From Siphonodentalium dalli (taxonomy: Eukaryota; Mollusca; Scaphopoda; Gadilida; Siphonodentaliidae): a DNA stretch of 64,000 nucleotides. This document shows, piece after piece, positions 20,244-62,885 of the stretch (the stretch's first letter is position 1; every line of letters starts with the position of its first letter). The stretch lies in assembly GCA_032622095.1 (NCBI GenBank), contig CP136069.1:203282690-203346689 (forward strand), given 5' to 3'. The notes below the pieces were generated by a model. It made no database searches and was not told the origin of the DNA. It saw only the letters and a program-made list of their open reading frames with translations. The position numbers were made by a program, and so were the translations under genes.

Positions 20244-20404
20244 TTAGTTCGCATCGCTCCTCCCGATTATCTTAGCGACGTAGTTCCTCACTTGGAAATG
20301 TAGTTGTTCTTTGGTTTCATCGAATACTGTCGATGCAAACTGTTTAGCAGAATCTGATCCCTTCACTAATTCCCTGTATACAGGAAGAGTGTATTTCTGT
20401 TTAC
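20244..20404 (-). CDS. RNPEP: Aminopeptidase B exon 14 (residues 577-628 and stop)
   Basis: Acceptor TTTGACAG, then phase-1 continuation of Gly576 followed by [17 protein letters not shown] and [17 protein letters not shown], ending [11 protein letters not shown] and TAA (20246-20244). It matches the RNPEP C terminus (KQKYTLPLYHAMM, AKETFASTASQLH, NYVQQI). It lies 11.6 kb from exon 13. A decayed copy lies at 18690-18860. Confidence 0.92.
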
Positions 20405-23400
20405 CTGTCAAAAAATTTGAGAAATTAATAAGAGCATTGCAAGGCGTGACATAATATTCCCATTGCTTTGTTTAGTGTAAACATTAGTGTTTCCAATTCC
20501 AGTTAGTGTTTCCAATTCCAAACTAGGGGTGCCACGATTAATCGTATAATCGATGAACCGTTTATAAAGCCGATAATCGATTACGATTTCCATCGTCGAT
20601 TAATCTGCGTTCTTTATTTCGGACGTCGGAAAATGCTGGGTATTATTGAATACCGGTTTTGTTTTACACAGTTTAATCTATAACGGAAGGGTTAACAACC
20701 TTTGATCGTTTATCAAAGAGATTCCGACAACATGAGTACTACTATGAACTTATGTTGTAAACAGTCAGCAGTTTATTTGATGATGCGACATGGTTACTAT
20801 TTGGGTCGTTGTATATTCTACAAATTGGCGGCACTGCAGATTTGAACTTATGACGACGTCATTGTATATTTTTACTTGAAAGGCGGCACTACGTCTTTGA
20901 AATGTGCCGACTGCCACAGTGTTCAATGATTGGAATGCACTCGCCCTTGAATCTGACTGGACCAATGGAGAGTTGATTGACATTCTCTGGAAACCAGAAA
21001 ACCTACGGAATTTTAATCCGCGATGTTCTCCGCAATGTTATTTGCGAGTATACTTTGTTTGCATAAGTATATGTTGATGTTACTAGTACAGGCTATCGCG
21101 TATAATATGGTGAATGTTGAATGAAAATCGATATTATCAAATAATCAACTTATAGTTTCCGTAACATTATATTCTCTTTTTAAGAACCGCCGGCCAGCTG
21201 TCGTTCATTCCTTCTTTTATATTGTTTGTATGTTTGGCTATTCATAACATTGAAATTAATCGCTATGTTCGTTCTAATGAACTTACAAATATTATAAGCA
21301 TTATCCATAACATCTCCGAGAACTGTGCTGTTATTGAATACATTATGCTCATTGGTCATTAACAGTGGTTTATGATGCACTTTATTAAAAATTAAACCAG
21401 CCAATGCCTCAAACAACCAGCGACAGTGCAGTTAATCAGCACCGAGCCAATATTCCATATTACGGATTACTTCCACTGATATTATTGTGTACGATTAATC
21501 GATTATAGTCGATTATTGACGACCGATTATCGATTATCAAAATCAATAATCGTGGCACCTCTATTCCAAACATGATATACAAATGAAACGGAAATTTAAA
21601 ATAGAAGTGGTAACATAATTATGTAAACGGGGACCAGACAAGCCCGAGGGATTATATGAAGGCCGAGGGATTATATGAAGCCCGAGGGATTATATGAAGA
21701 CCGAGGGATTATATGAAGGCCGAGGGATTATATGAAGCCCGAAGGATTATATGAAGGCCGAGGGATTATATGAAGCCCGAGGGATTATATGAAGGCCGAG
21801 GGATTATATGAAGCCCGAGGGATTATATGAAGGCCGAGGGATTATATGAAGGCCGAGGGATTATATGAAGGCCGAGGGATTATATGGAGGCCGAGGGATT
21901 ATATGAAGGCCGAGGGATTATATGAAGCCCGAGGGATTATATGAAGCCCGAGGGATTATATGAAGGCCGAGGGATTATATGAAGGCCGAGGGATTATATG
22001 AAGCCCGAGGGATTATATGAAGGCCGAGGGATTATATGAAGCCCGAGGGATTATATGAAGCCCGAGGGATTATATGAAGGCCGAGGGATTATATGAAGGC
22101 CGAGGGATTATATGAAGCCCGAGGGATTATATGAAGCCCGAGGGATTATATGAAGGCCGAGGGATTATATGAAGTCTTCTCCCATCGCTCTGTTTCAAAT
22201 TGCACAAGTCGAAAAATTCCAATAACTCTGGTATATATAAGCAACATGGACCCAAAATCAATCATGACCTTTATTTTCACACGGCGCATGCAGTTATCCT
22301 GGTGGCAATATCATGTATTTTCATGGCAAAGATGTCTATTGACAATGGTTTTTATCTGTGTACTTTTAACTGGAGGTCTGGAACCCTGAATGTAGACCCC
22401 TGCTAATCAGGCCTTGAAATAGGGTGTCTGTCATTTGCAGAATGAGGTCCCCAGAGGGTGAATTTAGTGATGCTACCCCCGCATAGTGGGCTAGCATCAC
22501 CAAATTCACCCTCTGGGAACCTCATTCTGCTGAGGTGTAAGCAGAATGAGGTCCCCAGAGGGTGAATTTGTTGATGCTAGCCCGCTATGCGGGGTAGCAT
22601 CACTAAATTCACCCTCTGGGGACCTCATTCTACAAATGACAGACACACTATTTCAAGGCTTGCCTGCTAATCAGGGACTTTCATTTCGATTCGAATCATG
22701 TAAGAAAATCAAAATCACATTGAATCTTGAATAAAATCTTATATCGAGTGTATCAACAGTAAAAACGAGGATCGACAGTTGGGGAAAGACTTAAATTGGT
22801 AGCTGTAACGAAACGAAAACCTCTTAAAAACTGATTGCGCCAATGGATTTTATATTACCTAACCATATTAATGCGTCTTCAGCACAATATGCATGCATTT
22901 TATTTTCCTCATAAATACTGATGGATGTGTCTCATTGAATGTGATCAAAGGTGGATGGGGAGTAACTCTTTATAATTTGCTTCCGAACTATCATACTCGG
23001 CAAACTTCATCGATCTCTGTGTTGTACTGAAATCTGCCATTTAAATGGTATCACTCTGAACTCTTTGACCTATGGCAATATATGGAATGGAGACTTGTGA
23101 CGTTTTGCGAATTAGTTTGGCTGTAATTCTCTTGTCTCTTGTGTCTGTCATTTGCAGATTGAGGTCCCCAGAGGGTGAATTTAGTGATGCTACCCCGCAT
23201 AGCAGGCTAGCAGCACCAAATTCACCCTCTGAGAACCTCATTCTGCTGAGGTGTAAGCAGAATGAGATAGGGTCCTGCGAATATTCGATATTCGATTCGA
23301 TTCGAAAGTCAAATTCGATTCGAATTCGATTCGAAATTGCCAACTCGAAATTTCAAATATACACTAATGGAAAAGTAGGCTGTTTACGGGCAGGTACACA

Positions 23401-26400
23401 CGTCGATCTTAGCTGTTTTGTGCCATTTAATTACAGAAAATGATGTATATATGTACCTTATAATTCTCATTGTACATCGCGATTATATATATTAAATATA
23501 AGTATAGACAGCAATTAGCCACTATAGGACAACTAAATACGTCTGATTTCTATCTTTGAACATGGTAGCCAAAAGCTCGGAGATCGCTATGGACCGATGA
23601 CGCGCGTAAATTATAATAGCTATGAGACTGATCAACTGCTAGCGTTATCCGCGGTCTATCCGTCTCAGATTCCGCGTTATGTAATATAGCTCAGAATTTA
23701 AACAACACGTGTTCCCGGCATCGAAAACTGCATTTTGGCGGTGTTTTCTTTTGAAGTTTACTTTCAAATTCGGAGCGTTCTTTGACACTTGACAAAACGT
23801 CATCCGTTATTCATGTTTATTTTAAACATGATAAAGCTGCAGGCGTACACATGTGATGAATGCAACATGGTGTATAAATCGTAAGCATCTCCAGGACAAC
23901 GACCCACCTATGGAATCATCTGTCCAAGAAGCATCCAGCACTACATAAACAGGCTAAGCTGCGACTGCTGTTGCATCTTCCGCAAGTTTATAACAACGGG
24001 TGATTCCGAATGTTGATTTGCAATTTTGCATGCACATGCATGCAATCTGTACAAATTTTGCGTGATTTTAGTTCCAATAATCTGTTTAGTGGTTATATAT
24101 TAATCGTCGTGACGGCCGCTTTGACGTTTTAATCAATTATCATTTGAAGTTAATAGTATTGCAAATGACGGTCATCGCCACATAAGTTATGATTTAACTT
24201 CGGGCATGTAGTTCATGGAACGTTTCACAAATCGTCTAATCGTTGACAAAACATGCCCAATTGAGAATACAACATACATATATATGATTCGAATCGATAT
24301 TCGATTCGATTTCCTGAATTCGATTCGATATTCGATTCGATCAAAATCTCCAATTCGCAGGACCCTAGAATGAGGTCCCCGGAGGGTGAATTTGGTGATG
24401 CTAGCCCGCTATGCGGGGTAGCATCACTAAATTCACCCTCTGGGGACCTCATTCTGCAAATGACAGTCACGCTATTTCAAGGCTTGATTCAACTCCTTGC
24501 CTCCCGGAGTCATGTTGGGTTTACATCATTCTTACTGAGATTATAATGAATTAAATAATTGGGCAGTCTATTTATAGATCATTTGCTACAGTGTAATCTG
24601 TATGTGCATGCATTCATTAGTTTCGTGAAATTCTCAGCACAAGAGCGATGTTGTAAGTACTCTGTAGTCCATATAAACCATGGGAATCAGCCAATGCACC
24701 GAGAGAACAGATTCGATAAAAGATTTGAATCAGGGCAGCTGATTTCGAATCGAGTTGAATCAGACAGATGATTCAGAATTGCAATGAAAAAAATCGATTC
24801 GCAGGGCCCTACCTGAATGCACCTTCAACAAACCTCGACTATGGAGGAATTCTCTACCTGAATGCACCTTCAACAAACCTTGACTATGGAGGAATTCTCT
24901 ACCTGAATGCACCTTCAACAAACCTTGACTATGGAGGAATTCTCTACCTGAATGCATATCTAACTAACCTTGACTATGGAGGAATTCTCTACCTGAATGC
25001 ATATTTAACTAACCTTGACTATGGAGGAATTCTCTACCTGAATGCATATTTAACTAACCTTGACTATGGAGGAATTCTCTACCTGAATGCATATTTAACT
25101 AACCTTAACTATGGAGGAATTCTCTACCTGAATGCATATCTAACTAACCTTGACTATGGAGGAATTCTCTACCTGAATGCATATTTAACTAACCTTGACT
25201 ATGGAGGAATTCTCTACCTGAATGCATCCTCAACTAACCTTGACTATGGAGGAATTCTCTACCTGAATGCATATCTAACTAACCTTGACTATGGAGGAAT
25301 TCTCTACCTGAATGCACCTTCAACAAACCTTGACTATGGAGGAATTCTCTACCTGAATGCATATTAACTAACCTTGACTATGGAGGAATTCTCTACCTGA
25401 ATGCATATTTATCTAACCTTGACTATGGAGGAATTCTCTACCTGAATGCATATTTAACTAACCTTAACTATGGAGGAATTCTCTACCTGAATGCATATTT
25501 AACTAACCTTGACTATGGAGTTTAACTAACCTTGACTATGGAGGAATTCTCTACCTGAATGCATATTTAACTAACCTTGACTATGTTTAACTAACCTTGA
25601 CTATGGAGGAATTCTCTACCTGAATGCATATTTAACTAACCTTGACTATGGAGGAATTCTCTACCTGAATGCATATTTAACTAACCTTGACTATGGAGGA
25701 ATTCTCTACCTGAATGCATATTTAACTAACCTTGACTATGGAGGAATTCTCTACCTGAATGCATCTTCAACTAACCTTGACTATGGAGGAATTCTCTACC
25801 TGAATGCATATTTAACTAACCTTGACTATGGAGGAATTCTCTACCTGAATGCATATTTAACTAACCTTAACTATGGAGGAATTCTCTACCTGAATGCATA
25901 TTTAACTAACCTTAACTATGGAGGAATTCTCTACCTGAATGCATATTTAACTAACCTTAACTATGGAGGAATTCTCTACCTGAATGCATATTTAACTAAC
26001 CTTGACTATGGAGGAATTCTCTACCTGAATGCATATTTAACTAACCTTGACTATGGAGGAATTCTCTACCTGAATGCATATATAACTAACCTTGACTATG
26101 GAGGAATTCTCTACCTGAATGCATATTTAACTAACCTTGACTATGGAGGAATTCTCTACCTGAATGCATATTTAACTAACCTTGACTATGGAGGAATTCT
26201 CTACCTGAATGCATATTTAACTAACCTTGACTATGGAGGAATTCTCTACCTGAATGCATATTTAACTAACCTTGACTATGGAGGAATTCTCTACCTGAAT
26301 GCATATTTAACTAACCTTGACTATGGAGGAATTCTCTACCTGAATGCATATTTAACTAACCTTGACTATGGAGTTTAACTAACCTTGACTATGGAGGAAT

Positions 26401-29400
26401 TCTCTACCTGAATGCATATATAACTAACCTTGACTATGGAGGAATTCTCTACCTGAATGCATATTTAACTAACCTTGACTATGGAGGAATTCTCTACCTG
26501 AATGCATATTTAACTAACCTTGACTATGGAGGAATTCTCTACCTGAATGCATATTTAACTAACCTTGACTATGGAGGAATTCTCTACCTGAATGCATATT
26601 TAACTAACCTTGACTATGGAGGAATTCTCTACCTGAATGCATATTTAACTAACCTTGACTATGGAGGAATTCTCTACCTGAATGCATATTTAACTAACCT
26701 TGACTATGGAGTTTAACTAACCTTGACTATGGAGGAATTCTCTACCTGAATGCATATATAACTAACCTTGACTATGGAGGAATTCTCTACCTGAATGCAT
26801 ATTTAACTAACCTTGACTATGGAGGAATTCTCTACCTGAATGCATATTTAACTAACCTTGACTATGGAGGAATTCTCTACCTGAATGCATATTTAACTAA
26901 CCTTGACTATGGAGGAATTCTCTACCTGAATGCATATTTAACTAACCTTGACTATGGAGGAATTCTCTACCTGAATGCATATTTAACTAACCTTGACTAT
27001 GGAGGAATTCTCTACCTGAATGCATATTTAACTAACCTTGACTATGGAGGAATTCTCTACCTGAATGCATATTTAACTAACCTTGACTATGGAGGAATTC
27101 TCTACCTGAATGCATATTTAACTAACCTTGACTATGGAGTTTAACTAACCTTGACTATGGAGGAATTCTCTACCTGAATGCATATATAACTAACCTTGAC
27201 TATGGAGGAATTCTCTACCTGAATGCATATTTAACTAACCTTGACTATGGAGGAATTCTCTACCTGAATGCATATTTAACTAACCTTGACTATGGAGGAA
27301 TTCTCTACCTGAATGCATATTTAACTAACCTTGACTATGGAGGAATTCTCTACCTGAATGCATATTTAACTAACCTTGACTATGGAGGAATTCTCTACCT
27401 GAATGCATATTTAACTAACCTTGACTATGGAGGAATTCTCTACCTGAATGCATATTTAACTAACCTTGACTATGGAGTTTAACTAACCTTGACTATGGAG
27501 GAATTCTCTACCTGAATGCATATTTAACTAACCTTGACTATGGAGGAATTCTCTACCTGAATGCATATTTAACTAACCTTGACTATGGAGGAATTCTCTA
27601 CCTGAATGCATATTTAACTAACCTTGACTATGGAGGAATTCTCTACCTGAATGCATATTTAACTAACCTTGACTATGGAGGAATTCTCTACCTGAATGCA
27701 TATATAACTAACCTTAACTATGGAGTTTAACTAACCTTGACTATGGAGGAATTCTCTACCTGAATGCATATTTAACTAACCTTGACTATGGAGGAATTCT
27801 CTACCTGAATGCATATATAACTAACCTTGACTATGGAGTTTAACTAACCTTGACTATGGAGGAATTCTCTACCTGAATGCATATTTAACTAACCTTAACT
27901 ATGGAGGAATTCTCTACCTGAATGCACCTTCAACTAACCTTGACTATGGAGGAATTCTCTACCTGAATGCATATTTAACTAACCTTGACTATGGATGAAT
28001 TCTCTACCTGAATGCACCTTCAACTAACCTTGACTATGGAGGAATTCTCTACCTGAATGCATATTTAACTAACCTTGACTATGGATGAATTCTCTACCTG
28101 AATGCATATATAACTAACCTTGACTATGGAGGAATTCTCTACCTGAATGCACCTTCAACTAACCTTGACTGTGGAGGAATTCTCTACCTGAATGCATATT
28201 TAACTAACCTTGACTATGGAGGAATTCTCTACCTGAATGCATATTAACTAACCTTGACTATGGAGGAATTCTCTACCTGAATGCATATATAACTAACCTT
28301 AACTATGGAGTTTAACTAACCTTGACTATGGAGGAATTCTCTACCTGAATGCATATTTAACTAACCTTGACTATGGAGGAATTCTCTACCTGAATGCATA
28401 TTTAACTAACCTTGACTATGGAGGAATTCTCTACCTGAATGCACCTTCAACTAACCTTGACTATGGAGGAATTCTCTACCTGAATGCATATTTAACTAAC
28501 CTTGACTATGGATGAATTCTCTACCTGAATGCATATATAACTAACCTTGACTATGGAGGAATTCTCTACCTGAATGCACCTTCAACTAACCTTGACTGTG
28601 GAGGAATTCTCTACCTGAATGCATATTTAACTAACCTTGACTATGGAGGAATTCTCTACCTGAATGCATATTAACTAACCTTGACTATGGAGGAATTCTC
28701 TACCTGAATGCATATATAACTAACCTTAACTATGGAGTTTAACTAACCTTGACTATGGAGGAATTCTCTACCTGAATGCATATTTAACTAACCTTGACTA
28801 TGGAGGAATTCTCTACCTGAATGCATATTTAACTAACCTTGACTATGGAGGAATTCTCTACCTGAATGCATATTTAACTAACCTTGACTATGGAGGAATT
28901 CTCTACCTGAATGCATATTTAACTAACCTTGACTATGGAGGAATTCTCTACCTGAATGCATATTAACTAACCTTGACTATGGAGGAATTCTCTACCTGAA
29001 TGCATATATAACTAACCTTAACTATGGAGTTTAACTAACCTTGACTATGGAGGAATTCTCTACCTGAATGCATATTTAACTAACCTTGACTATGGAGGAA
29101 TTCTCTACCTGAATGCATATATAACTAACCTTGACTATGGAGGAATTCTCTACCTGAATGCATATTTAACTAACCTTGACTATGGAGGAATTCTCTACCT
29201 GAATGCATATTTAACTAACCTTGACTATGGAGGAATTCTCTACCTGAATGCACCTTCAACTAACCTTGACTATGGAGGAATTCTCTACCTGAATGCATAT
29301 TTAACTAACCTTGACTATGGAGGAATTCTCTACCTGAATGCATATATAACTAACCTTGACTATGGAGGAATTCTCTACCTGAATGCATATTTAACTAACC

Positions 29401-32400
29401 TTGACTATGGAGGAATTCTCTACCTGAATGCATATTTAACTAACCTTGACTATGGAGGAATTCTCTACCTGAATGCACCTTCAACTAACCTTGACTATGG
29501 AGGAATTCTCTACCTGAATGCATATTTAACTAACCTTGACTATGGAGGAATTCTCTACCTGAATGCATATTTAACTAACCTTGACTATGGAGGAATTCTC
29601 TACCTGAATGCATATTTAACTAACCTTGACTATGGAGGAATTCTCTACCTGAATGCATATTTAACTAACCTTGACTATGGAGGAATTCTCTACCTGAATG
29701 CATATTAACTAACCTTGACTATGGAGGAATTCTCTACCTGAATGCATATATAACTAACCTTAACTATGGAGTTTAACTAACCTTGACTATGGAGGAATTC
29801 TCTACCTGAATGCATATTTAACTAACCTTGACTATGGAGGAATTCTCTACCTGAATGCATATATAACTAACCTTGACTATGGAGGAATTCTCTACCTGAA
29901 TGCATATTTAACTAACCTTGACTATGGAGGAATTCTCTACCTGAATGCATATTTAACTAACCTTGACTATGGAGGAATTCTCTACCTGAATGCACCTTCA
30001 ACTAACCTTGACTATGGAGGAATTCTCTACCTGAATGCATATTTAACTAACCTTGACTATGGATGAATTCTCTACCTGAATGCATATTTAACTAACCTTT
30101 ACTATGGAGGAATTCTCTACCTGAATGCATATTTAACTAACCTTGACTATGGAGGAATTCTCTACCTGAATGCACCTTCAACTAACCTTGACTGTGGAGG
30201 AATTCTCTACCTGAATGCATATTTAACTAACCTTGACTATGGAGGAATTCTCTACCTGAATGCATATTAACTAACCTTGACTATGGAGGAATTCTCTACC
30301 TGAATGCATATATAACTAACCTTAACTATGGAGTTTAACTAACCTTGACTATGGAGGAATTCTCTACCTGAATGCATATTTAACTAACCTTGACTATGGA
30401 GGAATTCTCTACCTGAATGCATATTTAACTAACCTTGACTATGGAGTTTAACTAACCTTGACTATGGAGTTTAACTAACCTTGACTATGGAGTTTAACTA
30501 ACCTTGACTATGGAGGAATTCTCTACCTGAATGCATATTTAACTAACCTTGACTATGGAGGAATTCTCTACCTGAATGCATATATAACTAACCTTAACTA
30601 TGGAGTTTAACTAACCTTGACTATGGAGGAATTCTCTACCTGAATGCATATTTAACTAACCTTGACTATGGAGGAATTCTCTACCTGAATGCATATTTAA
30701 CTAACCTTGACTATGGAGGAATTCTCTACCTGAATGCATATTTAACTAACCTTGACTATGGAGGAATTCTCTACCTGAATGCATATTTAACTAACCTTGA
30801 CTATGGAGTTTAACTAACCTTGACTATGGAGTTTAACTAACCTTGACTATGGAGTTTAACTAACCTTGACTATGGAGGAATTCTCTACCTGAATGCATAT
30901 TTAACTAACCTTGACTATGGAGGAATTCTCTACCTGAATGCATATATAACTAACCTTAACTATGGAGTTTAACTAACCTTGACTATGGAGGAATTCTCTA
31001 CCTGAATGCATATTTAACTAACCTTGACTATGGAGGAATTCTCTACCTGAATGCATATTTAACTAACCTTGACTATGGAGGAATTCTCTACCTGAATGCA
31101 TATTTAACTAACCTTAACTATGGAGGAATTCTCTACCTGAATGCACCTTCAACTAACCTTGACTATGGAGGAATTCTCTACCTGAATGCATATTTAACTA
31201 ACCTTGACTATGGAGGAATTCTCTACCTGAATGCATATTTAACTAACCTTGACTATGGAGGAATTCTCTACCTGAATGCATATTTAACTAACCTTGACTA
31301 TGGAGGAATTCTCTACCTGAATGCATATTTAACTAACCTTGACTATGGAGTTTAACTAACCTTGACTATGGAGTTTAACTAACCTTGACTATGTTTAACT
31401 AACCTTGACTATGTTTAACTAACCTTGACTATGGAGTTTAACTAACCTTGACTATGTTTAACTAACCTTGACTATGGAGTTTAACTAACCTTGACTATGG
31501 AGTTTAACTAACCTTGACTATGTTTAACTAACCTTGACTATGGAGTTTAACTAACCTTGACTATGGAGTTTAACTAACCTTGACTATGTTTAACTAACCT
31601 TGACTATGGAGTTTAACTAACCTTGACTATGGAGTTTAACTAACCTTGACTATGTTTAACTAACCTTGACTATGTTTAACTAACCTTGACTATGGAGTTT
31701 AACTAACCTTGACTATGGAGTTTAACTAACCTTGACTATGTTTAACTAACCTTGACTATGTTTAACTAACCTTGACTATGGAGTTTAACTAACCTTGACT
31801 ATGTTTAACTAACCTTGACTATGTTTAACTACCCTTGACTATGGAGTTTAACTAACCTTGACTATGTAGTTGACTAACCTTGACTATGTTTAACTAACCT
31901 TGACTATGGAGTTTAACTAACCTTGACTATGGAGTTTAACTAACCTTGACTATGTTTAACTAACCTTGACTATGTTTAACTAACCTTGACTATGTTTAAC
32001 TAACCTTGACTATGTTTAACTAACCTTGACTATGGAGTTTAACTAACCTTGACTATGGAGGAATTCTCTTATGTTGGTCAGCTCTTTATCAAATTTGTTC
32101 TTTATGCAAATCTGCGACCATCGCAGTCTGATCTGTGAAAGATATTTCCCAACATATATACAAAAGAACGATATGGTATTCATTATATTTATAGCAATGT
32201 TACCCAGGCATATAAAAGATTCCACTTCATTTAATAACCTTCCCATGACTGGAGCTTACTCGTAAAAACCCTCTGCCAACGCATATATAAGAGAACACAT
32301 TGGCCTAACAATATTTAGCTTGACATTGTAAGCCAGTGCATTGTCTTCTATATAAAGGGTAGAGATGAGCCGATAATCGGAAACGACAATCGGAATCTGC

Positions 32401-35400: not shown

Positions 35401-38400
35401 ATATTTGTTCAAGTTATGACTCTTACAAATTCGGGACGGACGGAACCCATTCCTATATCCCCCGGAATTTTCAATTTAGCGGGGGATAATAAATAGGCTA
35501 GCCAACTTCAATAGGATAAAATATTCTTGGGACTGCTGCAGACAATGGCTGTAGAGTCACACTGATACAATACGGCTAATTAACTGAACAAAGCAGGTGT
35601 TATGTACATTGGTAGACCTAATTACCTAATTAGCTGGTTTGTCATTTACTGCACTCATGCAGTTAAGCCGCATTTAATCCTCATCAGGTAACAATTGATG
35701 ATCATTTAATACACCTTTGTGTTATTTTCATTGTGTTGGGCATTGAATCTAACAGAACATGCAAATAATTTATAATTGTTTCTAATGATATTTTCATAAA
35801 TATTATGCGTTATTTGCAATGCATGTAAGAAAATTAAAAATATATTAAACATATATGTACATAAATAAATACACAAAAGACATAATATATTCCAATAAGT
35901 TGATGCACAACTTCATGGCGAAACCTCACCAATACATGTGAAAGTAAACGATAACATTTACTAATGTAGTTGTAATCGTAATCGATTACATTGAAAACAA
36001 ATGTAATCAGTAATCGTAATCATGTAAATCAAAAGTAATTGTAAACGTAATCGATTACATTGGCATATAATCGCCCCAACCCTGTTCTATACCCCCTAAT
36101 TTGGAGAAGATAAAATGCATAATTGAGGTGACTGATGGGTGAACACCACCAACTTCAACTGGGGAACTTCAATCTGATCCCAGGTCTCTTATAGCAGTTG
36201 AGGTTAAGCAGAATGAGGTTCCCAGAAGGTGAAGTTAGTGACTCTGGCCCACCGTGTGAGATATCATCACTAAATTCACCCTCTGGGAACCTACATATGT
36301 CACACACTATATCCAGACTTTCAGTGGGGTATAATAACCTGACGAACATACCTCTGCATTGTGCAGTATACCCCCCAGCTTCGTTGTGGGTATAATAACC
36401 TGGTGAACATACCTCTGCATTGTGGGACTTTGGAATGTGAGGATATTCTTCAGTGAACTTCTTGAGTGACCCGACAGACACACATTCAGCATCCATGATT
36501 TTATCAAGGAAATGCAGCACTTGGTAGGTCTTCCATCCAGTAATATCCTTATTTACCTCCTAAAATAAAGAGTGGTTAAATTAGGGGATAAACATGCTAT
36601 CTGGCGTGATTTTGGGACATTTATTGGTGGGTTTTATGATGGAAAATGCAGTTTTACTGGTGACGTGAGGAGCCTGTAAAACAGATATTTTTCATAGGAA
36701 AACCCACTGATAAACGTCCCAATTTTCTAATTCAGACTGACCGAAAAATCATGCTTCTTAAAATTTAAATGTCAGATGAGTTTACATGACTCGAATAACT
36801 TTATTCTTAAAACTTGGATGTCAGATGAGTTTCTTGTTTGTATGCATTAGATTAGACGATCCTTCAATCATAAACAATCATTTTCTGGAAGTGGAATTCC
36901 GAACAAAAATGTGCAATCTGAATTGGTTGGGGTGGGAGGGGTGGCGAATAACTTTATTCTTAAAACTTGGATGTCAGATGAGTTTCTTGTTTTGTGCAAT
37001 ATATTAGGCGATCCATGAATGCTAACAGTCATTTCCTGGATAAGTAAGCACCCTTTTGCTCAAAATCTTGTAATCTGCTTGCAGTTGGTACTCATTGGAT
37101 CACAAGTGCTCAATCTCTAGGTTTAGAAGTACATTTCGGTCAAATGTCTGTGATCGGAATTTGAGGTGGGGGTGAATGACATTAGTCTTACAACTCGGAC
37201 GTCAGATAAGTTTCTTACTTTGTGCATTAGATTTGACGATCCTTCAACCGCAACTAACGAAATTATCTCAAATTTATTAATGAAAAACATAAGAACAAAC
37301 TAGAGGGGTGACTGTCCCAATGGATACTACGGATACCCCCCGTGTTTTTAAAATACTAAGATGTTTCACATGTCAGTTAACATTTAGTTAAAATAACAGT
37401 TCCCATTGCAGGTGCACAAACCTAACCGTAATCTTAAACCTATTGACCAATAAATGTAGGAATAAAAGCTCGGACAAAATTATGCATTTTGCAAAAAAGT
37501 CGAAAAAGGGGAAAATAACTCAACAAAAAAAGTCGGACAGACATCATAATCGCAGGTGCACAGGTTCCCATGGTACTAAATATCAGTGCCAAGATTAAAA
37601 AACATTGACCTAAAAATGTAGAAATAAAAGCTCAGGCAAAATTAGGCATGTTGCAAAAAAAAAAAAAAGTCGTAAAAAGGGGATAACTCCACCAAAAAAT
37701 GTCGGACAGACATCATAATCGCAAGTGCACAGGTTCCCATGGTACTAAATGTCTGTGCCAAGTTAAAAACAAATTGACCTAAAAATGTAGGAATAAAAGA
37801 TCGGACAAAATTATACATGTTGCAAAAATATTCTAAGTCGAAAAAGGGGGAATAACTCCACCAAAAAAAAAGTCCCACAGACATCATAATCGCAGGTGCA
37901 CAGGTTCCATGGGAGTTGATGCCTGTGCCAAGTTTCACGGAAATTGATAAAAAACCGACTGAGAAAAACTCCGGACAAATTTGTGTCCACGGACGGACGG
38001 ACGACGGACGGACAAGCTGACTCCAGTATACCGCCCCCCCTAACTTCGTTGCGGGGGGTATAATCACATATTTTCAGAGCTATAGCGATGAATTGTTATT
38101 TAATCTTCTGAGTAGGTATGTTCTGAGATACCTCTTTCCAAATTATGCATACATTATTTTGGGTTTCAAACGAGCCATGTCTGTTTTACATTTTCAATTA
38201 CTTACTATGTGTCCCAACAGTAAAACTGTATAAAAGGAACTAGAACACTGACCTCTGTTGAAATTCCAATCCACGTATTGGCGAGTTTTTCCACAGGTTC
38301 TGTCAACTCCTTCCCTGCTGATAAATCTGGCTCATAAGGTGGCCAGCCAGCCTTGTCAAGCCATGTTGAATGAAACTCGAACCCCTCCCTGTGATATAAG

Positions 38401-53400: not shown

Positions 53401-56400
53401 ACGATATGTAAAAATAGATGTATCGGTCCGCAAAGTACCATCCTTGTGGCAGTGCTATATCGCAGTGCTAATGTAGAGAGAGCTGCATGGAGTTTGGGTA
53501 AATATAGTTAGGCTAATGCATTCTCTTATAAATGCGAGGCGCCCTATGAGAGACTCGCATATATAAGAGAATGCATTGGCACAGGGTTTTCTCAAAATTT
53601 CAGGAAGCTCAAGTCATGAAAGGGTTAACAAACATGTTACACAGTAGAATTGAACAAATACCTGCGGTCTGTGATGGTTCCAGCCAACATATACCGGGAC
53701 CACCATCACCCGCCTGATATGCTATTTGTAGACTGAAATCTCTTCCGGCTGTAAACTCGCTGGCAAGCTGTAAATAAACATGTCTTTATTAACCAATTCT
53801 ATAAATAAACATGTCATCATATTAACCCAGTCTATAAATAAACATGTCTTTATTAACCAATTCTATGCTGCATGGTTTCTCCCATTCAGTTATAAAAGTA
53901 TGTATAGGTCTACTGTACAGTAATGCTCTAAGTAATCGACTCCTTAACCACAGCAGAATTATGGGTAACTTTTCAGGATTTAGTCGGAAATATGGCTTGT
54001 TCCGACAAGCCATATTTCCGACTAAATCCTGAAATATTACCCATAACTCTGCTGTGGTTAAGGAGTCGATTACTTAGAGCATTACTGTAGGACAGGGATG
54101 TGAGCACCCCAGCCCATACATGTATATAATAGGTATCACAAAATTATCGTGCGCTTATCATGATTATATGTTTACATTCAATTTTTTTTTAGATATGTTA
54201 CACCTCGGGATACGGACATACAGACTAATATTTTGACTATATATATATATGTTACAAGATACAGATTTTCCCCTGCACTGCATGTTGTGACTACCCCCCC
54301 CCCCCCCCCCCCACCCCCAATAGCTCTTGTTCTGGCTGTTTCACGACATGTTTGTATTAAACAAACGTGACCTCTGATGGTTATATAAACAAATTAATAT
54401 AAAATTCATAGTTGTATAGTTTGTGCTTTCATTGCTTTGTACGTGGATTCTGTAATATAAATAAATGCATATGAAGAGCGCTTGGTCCACGATTTGCATG
54501 TGAAGTACATGATCATATGACAACGGTACAATGGTCACTTTATAAGTTGAACAAACCGTTACAGAATAATTATATTAACTAAACTTATTTAAAGTGACAC
54601 ATACAAATTACTCTGTAAAACTACTGAAATTTTGGCGTAAAAAAGACGATAACTTACTGATGAATATGACCTGAGATTCAGGGTTCTCTAGAATTTATTT
54701 ATTACCCTTTTTTAGTTTTGGACTGGCTAAAACTGCTCTGATGGCAGACTTCCTCTTCATCATTAGCGGAATTTAACCCTTGATCATTTTTAAAATTTAT
54801 TGATTATAATAATGTGATACATTGATGGAAAGAGCTCTAAGAGCTCTTTCCATCAATGTATCAAATTATTATAATCACTAAATTTTAAAAATGATCAAGG
54901 AAATATGGGTTGATACAAAAATCGGACTCGGCACTGAAAGGGTTAAGCTTCCAGTGAGCACGGTAGGGTACTTTTGTGCAGACCCAGGACACTGTAGCAC
55001 CCCCCCCATTCTGATGTGGACACCATAGAACAATATCATTGAAAAGTAATCATTGGAATGGTCTACTATTCATCTGGAGAGATGTTGAGGTAATAAAAGC
55101 AGACGACAGACAGATAAACATTGTACAAGAGCAGAATGGTTCATATTCATTGGTGGGAAATGTTCAGATAATAAGTTCAACGAATTTATGGCATTGTTAG
55201 ACATGTCTTAATTTGTACTCTGTTTCTTGGAATGGCTTCTTGTCGTCAACTATTATCAATGATGCTGTCTGATAATGATGGCCAGACTCCCTTGGGATTT
55301 GAGATGGTAGTTTTTGAAGACCGAGGTGGAATGGTCTGGCGATAAAATATGTCAGTACATCAGAATGTAAATCAGAAAGAAGGTTTTGAAGTCAAGCTGT
55401 AGGATTATTTAATGTTGGCACCTGATCTTACGCTGACACACTAGCACTGACCTGCACACAGCACTAGGGGGAGGCATTCCAACATGGGGTGGTCTGTCTA
55501 TATACACTGACCTGCATGCAGCACAAGGGGGAGGCATTCCAACATGGGGTGGTCTGTCTATATACACTGACCTGCATGCAGCACAAGGGGGAGGCATTCC
55601 CAAATGGGGTGGTCTGTAGGGAACAGCGATCTATGTTTTTCAACCAGAATGGATTCAACTCACACGGAGATATGGTGAAGAAGTTTCCACTTCAGTACAT
55701 GCATGTCAGAGTGTCGATTAACCCCTTCTATACTAAATACTCATTTCTGAGTAGTTCCCCTTTTGGAATGTTCACATAATAAGTTCAACAAACAACATAT
55801 GGTAATTTGTTGAACTTATTATCTGAATATTTCCTAATGGATAACTACTTGTCATTGAGTATCTAGTATAGAAAGGATTAAATTTATCGAAGTCAAGGCA
55901 CCACAGAGTTTAAAAAGAGAGTTCCACAAAGCAGGGTGTGAGACCTTCAACGTGTGTAGTCAGGAATCATGCAAAACATCTTTAACCCTTTCAATGTTAA
56001 AGCATCATTGATGAGTAGTTATCCCATAGGAGATGTTCAGATAATAAGTTTCACCCTTTCTATACTAAAGCATCATTGATGAGTAGTTATCCCATAGGAA
56101 ATATTCAGATAAGTTTAACCCTTTCTATGCTAATGCAACCTTGATGAGTAGTTATCCCATAGGAAATGTTCAGATAATAATTTTCGCCCTTTCTATACTG
56201 AAGCATTATTGATGAGTAAGTTTATGCCGCGGTACTTTTAGTTAACACAGTCGCCTATGGAAAATAATTAGGTGTTTGACTGTTTGTAACCTATAGAGGA
56301 GACCTTTTTGAGTGAATACTAGAACTATTCAATGAGTGACACCGAATCACAAGTCACGAGTTGAAAATTGATATTTCCACTGTTGTTGATAATGAAATAA

Positions 56401-59400: not shown

Positions 59401-62400
59401 TCTGCCGTCTCTGACAAGATGAGGAAATCTTATTTCTCTATTTCTGGCAGGGACATTGTTAAACAACGCACACCAACGACGATGGCTTCCCTTTTAAAAT
59501 CTATCGTCCTCCCAAAAAGCCTATTTGGATGTGAGATTATGCCTCTCTCTTCAGCCTCGAACACATATCACATGGAAAAGGCTTACCGCACATGCTTAAA
59601 ACACATTCAAGGACTTCCGACGCGTACGCCTACGAACATCGCTATGAGTTTACTGGGACTCATGCCACTCGAAAGAGAAATACATATTAAGAAACTCGTC
59701 TTCCTAGCTGACCTCATACATCTTCCACAAAATCACCAAGTGCCACTCAGGACATTCATCTTTAATTTTATCAATGTACAATCTTTAGTCGCCATACCAG
59801 CGGTTATGTTGCAGATGTCATCCACCTGCTCCACCAGTATGACCTCTACAATTTCTTGGAATCATTCATGGAGACCGGTAAATTTCCGTCCAAACATACT
59901 TGGAAAGAACTTTGTAACTCAACTATACAGCGTCACTATATATCAGAATGGGATCGCAAAGTTACTTCCGTCTCATCACTGGAAATATTCCGTTTAACAC
60001 ACTGCTAACCACTCTCAGTCTGGAGCATCTGGAGATTGCTCAAATGTCATCCCCAGTGTTCCCAGACACTAAAGCCCCTCTCCTTACTTCTGAACAGAAC
60101 GATGTTTGACAACAATAGCACATGTTGTGCTTGTACTAACTCATTTAGTAACGAATTACTGCACGCCATGCGACACTGCACAGACGACCGTTTGCTTGCG
60201 ATCAGGAATGCCTATTGAGAGCATATAATTAACCGATTCGGTGTGGCTACATTTCTGCACTTGGACTCGAGTGATGACTGTTCAGTACTCGCCTTCCTCC
60301 TTGGAAGCGACTGCTTGAATCCGCCCGACGTCATAACAAAGAACCTAGACCAAATCATCCTGGATTCTGCCTATTTTATCTTTGTTATGTGCCAACTGAT
60401 CGATCGTGTTCATACTTAGACATCAACACCAAGGAAGAAAATCTGTATTATTCCACATCACCATTTTGTACGAAACCATTATTCTTATTGTATTATGTAT
60501 ATAATATCTTCTCCAGCAATGGGGGTATGAAATAAATATATATATCTATATATATATAGTCCTCCGACGCAATGTCGGGGGGAAATAATCAGGGGCGTCA
60601 GAGCATGGGAGGGGGTGGGCAGATGGTGTCACATGACCTTCTCCTCCTACCCTTTCATACTTCATAGAGTGGCAAGAAATACCTCTGATATCAGCATTGC
60701 TGTAATGTCCTAAGAGACAATATACCAATTCTAGAAGTGAAATATGAGCTTGGGCATGGAAAGTGCTTTAAAATGTGGTGGGTGTATTTCAAAACTTTGC
60801 CATTTCGGCATTTATTCCAATACCTCTGAATGAAAAAAGTGCACTTTTCTGGAAGTTTTTCTAAAAATTTCCTTTAAAAGGCATTTTTTTTCTCTCAATA
60901 TTTTCTGTTAGAACTATTAAATTTGAACAATGAACATTGCTTCTGGAGTATATTTTCCAGATTTTGAGAAAAAATATAAATAAAAAGCCACCATCTCTCA
61001 TTGCCTGAGAACACAGATATTTTATGTTAACCCTTTCTATACTACATACTCATTGACGAGTAGTTACCTCATTAACCCTTTCTATACTACATACTCATTG
61101 ACGAGTAGTTACCTCATTAACCCTTTCTATACTACATACTCATTGACGAGTAGTTCCCTCATTAACCCTTTCTATACTACATACTCATTGACAAGTAGTT
61201 CCTTTATTAACCCTTTCTATACTACATACTCATTGACGAGTAGTTCCTTTATTAACCCTGTCTATACTACATACTCATTGACGAGTAGTTCCCTTATTAA
61301 CCCTTTTTATACTACATACTCATTGACGAGTAGTTCCTTTATTAACCCTGTCTATATTACATACTCATTGACGAGTAGTTCCTTTATTAACCCTGTCTAT
61401 ACTACATACTCATTGACGAGTAGTTCCCTTATTAACCCTTTCTATACTACATACTCATTGACGAGTAGTTCCCTCATTAACCCTTTCTATACTACATACT
61501 CATTGACGAGTAGTTCCTTTATTAACCCTTTCTATACTACATACTCATTGACGAGTAGTTCCCTTATTAACCCTTTCTATACTACATACTCATTGACGAG
61601 TAGTTCCCTTATTAACCCTTTCTATACTACATACTCATTGACGAGTAGTTCCCTTATTAACACTTTCTATACTACATACTCATTAACGAGTAGTTACCTC
61701 ATTAACCCTTTCTATACTACATACTCATTGACGAGTAGTTCCTTTATTAACCCTTTCTATACTACATACTCATTGACGAGTAGTTCCCTTATTAACCCTT
61801 TCTATACTACATATTCATTGACGAGTAGTTCCCTTATTAACCCTTTCTATACTACATACTCATTGACGAGTAGTTCCCTTATTAACACTTTCTATACTAC
61901 ATACTCATTGACAAGTAGTTACCTCATTAACCCTTTCTATACTACATACTCATTGACGAGTAGTTCCCTTATTAACACTTTCTATACTACATACTCATTG
62001 ACGAGTAGTTACCTCATTAACCCTTTCTATACTACATACTCATTGACGAGTAGTTCCTTTGGGAAATGTTCACATAATAAGTTCAACAAACAAAAGTTCC
62101 GACCAATGAATATGATTTCTTCTACTCTTGTGTTATCTCTTTTTCTGTCTGTCGTCTGCTCATGTATCCGGAGCACCCTTCTAAATTAATAATAGGTCAT
62201 ACCAATATTTTTTATAACTGAATGGGAGAATCCATTTAGTATAGAAAGGGTTAACAGCTTTATGCTTGTTTTTGTGTACATACCTTCCTTTGTTGATTTT
62301 AAGGTTGTTTTTGTGTACATACCTTCCTTTGTTGATTTTAAGTTTGTTGTGTGTACATACCTTCCTTTGTTGATTTTAAGGTTGCTGTGTGTACATACCT

Positions 62401-62599: not shown

Positions 62600-62885
62600 G
62601 GCACCTGCAATCAATAGAACAGGGCTTAAAGGCATGAAAGGAGTCCCAGGGCACCTGCAATCAATAGAACAGGGCTTAAAGGCATGAATGGAGTCCCATG
62701 GCACCTGAAATAAATAGAACAGGGCTTAAAGGCACGAATGGAGTCCCATGGCACCTGCAATCAATAGAACAGGGCTTAAAGGCACGAATGGAGTCCCATC
62801 GCACCTGCAATCAATAGAACAGGGCTTAAAGGCATTAATGGAGTCCCATGGCACCTGCAATCAATAGAACAGGGCTTAAAGGTAC
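62590..62885 (-). repeat. 50-bp tandem repeat spanning the exon 1 start and acceptor, 6 copies
   Basis: On the minus strand each unit has ATTGATTGCAG|GTGCCATG, then GGACTCCATTC, then ATGCCTTTAAGCCCTG. The copy at 62599 is the true start. In upstream copies the frame reads MGLHSCL and stops. One copy has CATCG in place of CATGG and one CCAGGG, each losing or changing the ATG context. Confidence 0.92.

Follow-up and report, generated by a model that had tools for sequence, protein, structure and literature searches.

A 7.2-kb intronic minisatellite of exon 13 splice-donor copies in a scaphopod aminopeptidase B gene

We analyzed a 64,000-nucleotide stretch (the window) of contig CP136069.1 from the scaphopod mollusc Siphonodentalium dalli, which carries the aminopeptidase B gene (RNPEP) on its minus strand. 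Intron 13 of this gene is filled over 7.2 kb of its 11.6 kb by a tandem array in which the end of exon 13 and the adjoining 5' splice site are repeated. The array spans an exon-intron boundary together with exon sequence, and its units carry AG/GT splice signals; it has the structural features of the amphioxus minisatellites called mirages and is an outsize example of this little-known type of repeat. We regard it as probably a minisatellite of that type whose copies, judged from sequence, are most likely silent and tolerated rather than selected.

Anatomy and origin of the exon 13 donor array

RNPEP was mapped by tblastn, with the human RNPEP protein as the query. Fourteen coding exons were placed between window positions 62604 and 20244; 13 of them came from the first tblastn mapping, and AG/GT boundaries were fitted for all except exon 2, which is a weak match at 58193-58083 (E = 0.06). 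With this weak exon included, the number 13 that the first-pass annotation gave to the repeated exon agrees with the mapping. On the minus strand, exon 13 ends with ...AGAGAATTCCTCCATAGTCAAG followed by the donor GTTAGTT, and reading past it into the intron meets an in-frame stop at once (GGT TAG), as that annotation had correctly stated. The features concerned are as follows.

32048 to 32132, minus strand: coding exon 13 of RNPEP, 85 nt, from which the repeated junction derives (tblastn to the human RNPEP protein plus AG/GT boundaries)
20405 to 32047, minus strand: intron 13, 11,643 bp, host of the array (exon boundaries)
20244 to 20404, minus strand: RNPEP coding exon 14, the last, with first base 20404 (tblastn plus boundary)
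24809 to 32057, minus strand: donor minisatellite, 189 donor-bearing units with the exon's own included, spacings of 20-45 bp (Tandem Repeats Finder plus unit count)
31348 to 32057, minus strand: exon-proximal block, 33 short units of 20, 22 or 23 bp with the exon's own included, each holding the last 10-13 exon nt plus the donor (unit count)
24809 to 31347, minus strand: distal block, built of 45-bp units (the donor flanked by the last 22 exon nt and by intron sequence) among which 23-bp units are scattered, with a higher-order block pattern (unit comparison)

A donor-bearing unit was defined as the exon 13 end plus its donor at 3 or fewer substitutions, and all counts include the exon's own copy. 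The array of donor copies is real, being returned by Tandem Repeats Finder in three rows that adjoin each other (24809-28310, 28311-31350, and 31328-32057) and borne out by the unit count. The earlier figure of more than 140 copies was right in that the copies are many and too low as a number, since 189 were counted; its assumption that every unit measures 45 bp fails on the exon side, where the 33 short units hold only the last 10 to 13 exon nucleotides. Spacings between units were 45 bp (128 times), 23 bp (36 times), 20 bp (17 times), 44 bp (6 times), and 22 bp (once). Exact copies on the minus strand numbered 163 for CATAGTCAAGGTTAGTT and 115 for a 25-mer; the last 22 exon nucleotides (AGAGAATTCCTCCATAGTCAAG) occurred in 119 exact copies, contiguous with exon 13, and the splice signal AAGGTTAGT was exact in 183 units. 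On the plus strand of the array, no donor-bearing units were found, either exact or with up to 3 substitutions.

The 45-bp unit holds two donor-like sites, CAG/GTAGAG and AAG/GTTAGT (the slash marking the junction), which lie 24 nt apart and in frame, and a recursive-splicing or microexon reading of this arrangement was considered. An intron of 21 nt is shorter than animal splicing is known to allow.

Next, we looked into where else the unit occurs. A 24-mer of the 45-bp unit had at least 134 matches at 3 or fewer mismatches, all on one strand, across the nine contigs of the 2.23-Gb genome, a kind of count that can be a lower bound for repeats. The window alone yielded 134 matches, equal to the genome-wide number, and the first 100 genome places all lay in the window. 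The unit thus looks private to intron 13, and an interspersed satellite family was not found, in that the 24-mer did not occur at other loci of the genome at this mismatch level. Because the units hold exon 13 coding sequence, adjoin the exon, and were found nowhere else in the genome, we place the origin of the array at the exon 13 donor. The order proposed in the first-pass annotation, with the junction first and the satellite later, is therefore well supported.

The units are strongly homogenized. Only 14 distinct sequences were present among the 128 complete 45-bp units and 17 among the 155 units compared beyond the proximal block; patterns of unit types recur in blocks (for example, ABCGA), and the units at the far edge, judged by eye, are the most diverged. 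Few unit types and recurring blocks are as expected of recent block amplification. With boundary units excluded, the exon 13 array shows the concerted evolution within a cluster that is a feature of mirages.

Junction copies at exons of other genes

We evaluated junction copies in a sample of 210 exons of other genes, of which 120 came from M1 peptidases, myosins, TCP1/Cpn60, and proteasome subunits and 90 from kinesins. The exons were chosen by hand: 120 of 207 rows, where those passed over were mainly near-duplicates, matches without introns, and the window itself, and 90 of 123 kinesin rows. Exon ends were set by a simple site score plus an open frame near the edges of the hidden Markov model match, and 36 donors and 18 acceptors that fell below the cutoff or were not found were left out of the counts. 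A local tandem copy was present at 17 of 174 donors versus 4 of 192 acceptors (Fisher test, P value = 0.0026). Some sampled exons share a gene or are paralogs; a bootstrap that groups exons by position only (81 clusters) gave a probability of 0.00025 that the donor rate was not above the acceptor rate.

The difference was present in both subsets (11 of 107 donors and 3 of 110 acceptors for the first 120 exons; 6 of 67 donors and 1 of 82 acceptors for the 90 kinesin exons) and over 12 settings of the match and site-score thresholds (Fisher test, P values from 0.0002 to 0.015). At L005 and L097 the donor picked was the second copy, and L102 and L209 are doubtful, with a sole near copy that lacks GT; after the four doubtful donors were dropped, the counts were 13/170 versus 4/192 (P value = 0.022). 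Counting only junctions with at least 2 copy pairs gave 10/174 donors versus 2/192 acceptors (P value = 0.016). No copy was found at any of 203,886 positions in base-shuffled genome fragments at the junction threshold, and chance is therefore excluded.

Clear donor arrays stood at a TCP1-family exon (L018) and a proteasome-family exon (L060), and kinesin exons carried 13 copies within the fragment (L173) and 11 copies (L175). Three M1 genes (L065, L068, and L076) had arrays of different unit length at apparently the same exon end, and L065, a sister M1 gene, had 42 donor copies over 2.4 kb. The exon 13 array is thus not the singular event it had first been taken for: junction arrays are common in the sampled exons, and the kind is described in amphioxus.

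Repeats that take in acceptors were seen at two further M1-type loci. At L082 (C8:21297656-21298587), the repeated unit of an M1 peptidase gene measures 101 bp and contains an acceptor with the beginning of the next exon; its copies lie upstream of the real exon and take in two peptidase-family matches (C8:21297753 and C8:21297854). At L092 (within the L092/L155 region, C9:189190361-189196325), 76-bp units with an acceptor lie upstream of an M1-like exon.

The donor rate was also set against the introns themselves. Arrays covered 9.8% of donors versus 7.4% of matched downstream intron (bootstrap, P value = 0.11), and enrichment at donors over the intron background was left unsupported. In 30 longer kinesin fragments, the values were 9.5% for deep intron and 8.2% for near intron, with a copy at 1 of 17 donors and at none of 26 acceptors. 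Donors are not overrepresented compared with their own introns, and there is therefore no sign that arrays are drawn to donors. Acceptors, in contrast, lay in arrays less often than their own upstream intron (2.1% versus 4.4%; bootstrap, P value = 0.011). This dip is local, at about 2% over the 45 bases that precede the acceptor versus 3.4 to 6.7% from -300 to -46.

One tentative explanation is that splice site choice follows transcription order, so that donor arrays drift, acceptor arrays are purged, and the 5-fold gap in odds stands as a record, across the genome, of a first-come, first-served rule. Extra donors would arise downstream of the real one, be ignored, and be free to drift, as far as the 189 copies counted here; extra acceptors would arise upstream of the real one, be used first, and hence be purged. 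Stronger constraint on the branch site and pyrimidine stretch would also fit the rarity of acceptor arrays. If the transcription-order explanation is true, the RNPEP array becomes an extreme natural experiment. Moreover, should donor arrays prove frequent and harmless, and acceptor arrays rare, comparing the two would measure selection per site without engineered genes.

A mutational origin of the difference, in which donors are more frequent starting points of tandem duplication than acceptors, appears rather unlikely. It would account for the 17/174 versus 4/192 counts and for the different units that L065, L068, and L076 carry at apparently the same exon end; however, donors are not clearly above nearby intron, and the low acceptor value relative to its own intron fits selective removal better.

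Fate of the donor copies

We suggest that the array began with short tandem duplications over the exon 13/intron 13 boundary, which placed copies of the exon end and its 5' splice site in the intron, and that slippage or unequal exchange then expanded the copies to 7.2 kb with concerted evolution, as the higher-order blocks and few unit types would indicate. The spliceosome would take the authentic donor, which adjoins the exon and is transcribed first; if any later donor were used, GGT TAG would be added and the protein truncated. The simplest way for such an array to be tolerated would be that the first donor is the one used.

The strength of the donor itself was assessed by its pairing with U1. 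The duplex of the exon 13 donor, AAG/GTTAGT, with U1 had an energy of -6.7 kcal/mol versus -14.0 kcal/mol for the consensus, which ranked it 10th of the 12 donors tested in the gene. The series of near-perfect U1 sites expected in the first-pass annotation is not borne out by this weak pairing.

Conservation was tested by moving circular windows over the units of five arrays, with the splice window defined as positions -3 to +6. Windows that varied as little as the splice window or less numbered 19/45 in the exon 13 unit, 44/57 in L065, 53/58 in L060, 28/39 in L018, and 37/37 in L076. The splice window was not the least variable part of the unit in any of the five arrays, and selection on the donor copies found no support. 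These results fit an array that is most likely tolerated and not used.

Three observations weigh against silent, tolerated copies. First, the splice window of the exon 13 array varied by 0.003 versus a unit average of 0.016, which can be read as retention, but the 19 windows already mentioned vary as little. Second, GT is intact in 237 of the 244 copies from 11 arrays, which can also be read as retention, in a count that misses worn copies since copies were found by their likeness to the real junction. Third, the array lies in the sense direction within a long intron and may affect the splicing of intron 13 or the level of the transcript.

The first-pass annotation had raised decoy donors, intron retention, slowed splicing, and an effect of array length as possible results. 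We found no sign of these in the sequence, where the donor window is neither specially conserved nor, except at L018, broken up. A harmful decoy field, with mis-splicing, intron retention, and a length-dependent drop in gene output, is accordingly judged improbable. The in-frame stop after the first donor and the 188 further donor-like units in intron 13 are what such a field would need, and L018, which lacks GT in 4 of 9 scored copies, is as the purging of decoys predicts. L018 is the exception, however, and decoys in general are not broken down: GT was kept in all 168 scored copies of the exon 13 array and lost elsewhere only in L065 (2/42) and L068 (1/7), with none lost in the others. In addition, amphioxus mirages are reported, in the accessible parts of the papers, not to interfere with regular splicing (PMC3087553, PMC3902484).

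The opposite possibility is that the copies form a functional block of U1-binding sites, shielding the long intron from premature polyadenylation or boosting expression. The unbroken retention of GT in the exon 13 copies would agree with this, as would the higher frequency of arrays at donors than at acceptors. Nevertheless, the weak pairing of the donor with U1, the splice windows that are not the best conserved part of their units in five arrays, and the lack of excess at donors over the intron background make such a function very unlikely. Finally, long arrays are hard to assemble, yet an assembly artifact or an interspersed satellite inserted beside the exon is scarcely credible for units that include the coding end of the exon itself, show ordered variation, were found nowhere else, and have smaller counterparts at exons of other genes.

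Other tandem arrays and known repeat types

Smaller arrays in RNPEP also take in exon ends.

62273 to 62460, minus strand: second donor array, end of exon 1 plus GTATGT donor, 38-39 bp, 4 further copies (Tandem Repeats Finder plus sequence)
62586 to 62882, minus strand: array of an acceptor-like site plus the exon 1 start codon, TTGCAG/GTGCCATGGG, 50 bp, about 6 copies (Tandem Repeats Finder plus sequence)
36340 to 36424, minus strand: exon 12 donor plus one downstream copy, 61 bp apart (sequence comparison)

In the array at 62586-62882, the context of the start codon (GTGCCATGGGACT) and the acceptor-like TTGCAG are repeated upstream of exon 1. Of five upstream units read, four keep the ATG, and an in-frame stop follows soon after each. 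If this array is 5' untranslated region rather than intron, its ATGs would be upstream start codons. A 31-bp, 3-copy array (53771-53866) adjoins the exon 3 acceptor on its upstream side and repeats the acceptor's TTTATTTA(T/C)AG without exon sequence.

An RNPEP junction was scored as copied when the 24-mer centered on it shared at least 20 of its 24 positions with a second 24-mer of the same strand no more than 1.5 kb away. By this measure, 4 of the 25 junctions tested, a set without exon 2, had copies (the exon 13 donor and three others), compared with 35.8% of intron positions and 0.7% of positions in exon interiors. RNPEP junctions thus lie in arrays less often than intron positions do. The stronger tandem arrays make up about 30% of the RNPEP span and about 31% of the window, with many unrelated units (for example, 57 bp by 23 copies, 40 bp by 69, 62 bp by 27, and 45 bp by 23). 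No RNA families were found in the window at the gathering score.

Two side observations concern the wider genome. Many muscle-type myosin head exons lie on a single contig, at about 158-291 Mb of C4, with a near-identical run at 274-275 Mb, which suggests a large myosin gene cluster. Paired or tripled matches of equal or near-equal score, some of them in inverted orientation, at C9:212.33/213.89 Mb, C1:28.50/28.77 Mb, and C7:207.98/209.49/209.79 Mb suggest recent large segmental or inverted duplications.

The ordinary intronic minisatellites of the window resemble the exon 13 array in being arranged head to tail. They differ from it in content, since a tested RNPEP junction together with exon sequence is present in no arrays other than those at the two ends of exon 1 and at the exon 13 donor.

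Intron gain by tandem duplication of AG/GT proto-splice sites, in which a segment with a splice signal is duplicated, is described in the accessible part of PMC3087553. The duplication of such a segment is shared with the exon 13 array, whereas the copies here lie within one intron and no new intron position is claimed. The array would link the growth of minisatellites to intron length and possibly to intron gain. With about 190 5' splice sites of near-identical sequence in a single native intron, it would also provide a test bed for donor choice by the spliceosome.

The closest known kind is the amphioxus mirage. In the accessible parts of the papers, mirages are minisatellites that duplicate exon-intron boundaries in Adh3, the globins BflGb6 and BflGb9, TnC, and PGBD5; two BflGb6 haplotypes hold 6 and 3 units, and units measure 10 to 72 bp in Adh3 and about 150 to 160 bp in the globins (PMC3087553, PMC3902484). 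In the open-access literature on junction repeats, as far as its accessible parts go and with most subscription papers outside this scope, junction-spanning minisatellites were found only for amphioxus; the passages seen on huntingtin and Conus describe no junction arrays. As described there, mirages are like the exon 13 array in that their units consist of the exon end, the splice signal, and the adjoining intron, and both 5' and 3' boundaries are copied. The concerted evolution described for BflGb6 is likewise seen in the exon 13 array. Length polymorphism or somatic instability is a further mark of mirages, and their reported hosts are cephalochordates. In the genome studied here, two joined muscle myosin exons had their best matches in eight squid and scallop chains (258.7 to 250.3 bits), with a vertebrate cardiac myosin lower (235.5 bits), and a lancelet host is improbable. 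Searches for the molluscan haemocyanin and GFP families returned no match, a result that is no proof of their absence. Compared with the mirages in those accounts, the array in RNPEP differs in its 189 units over 7.2 kb, in its mollusc host, and in that the occurrence of the kind was counted in a sample of exons from the genome; it would extend mirages, described there for lancelets, to another phylum.

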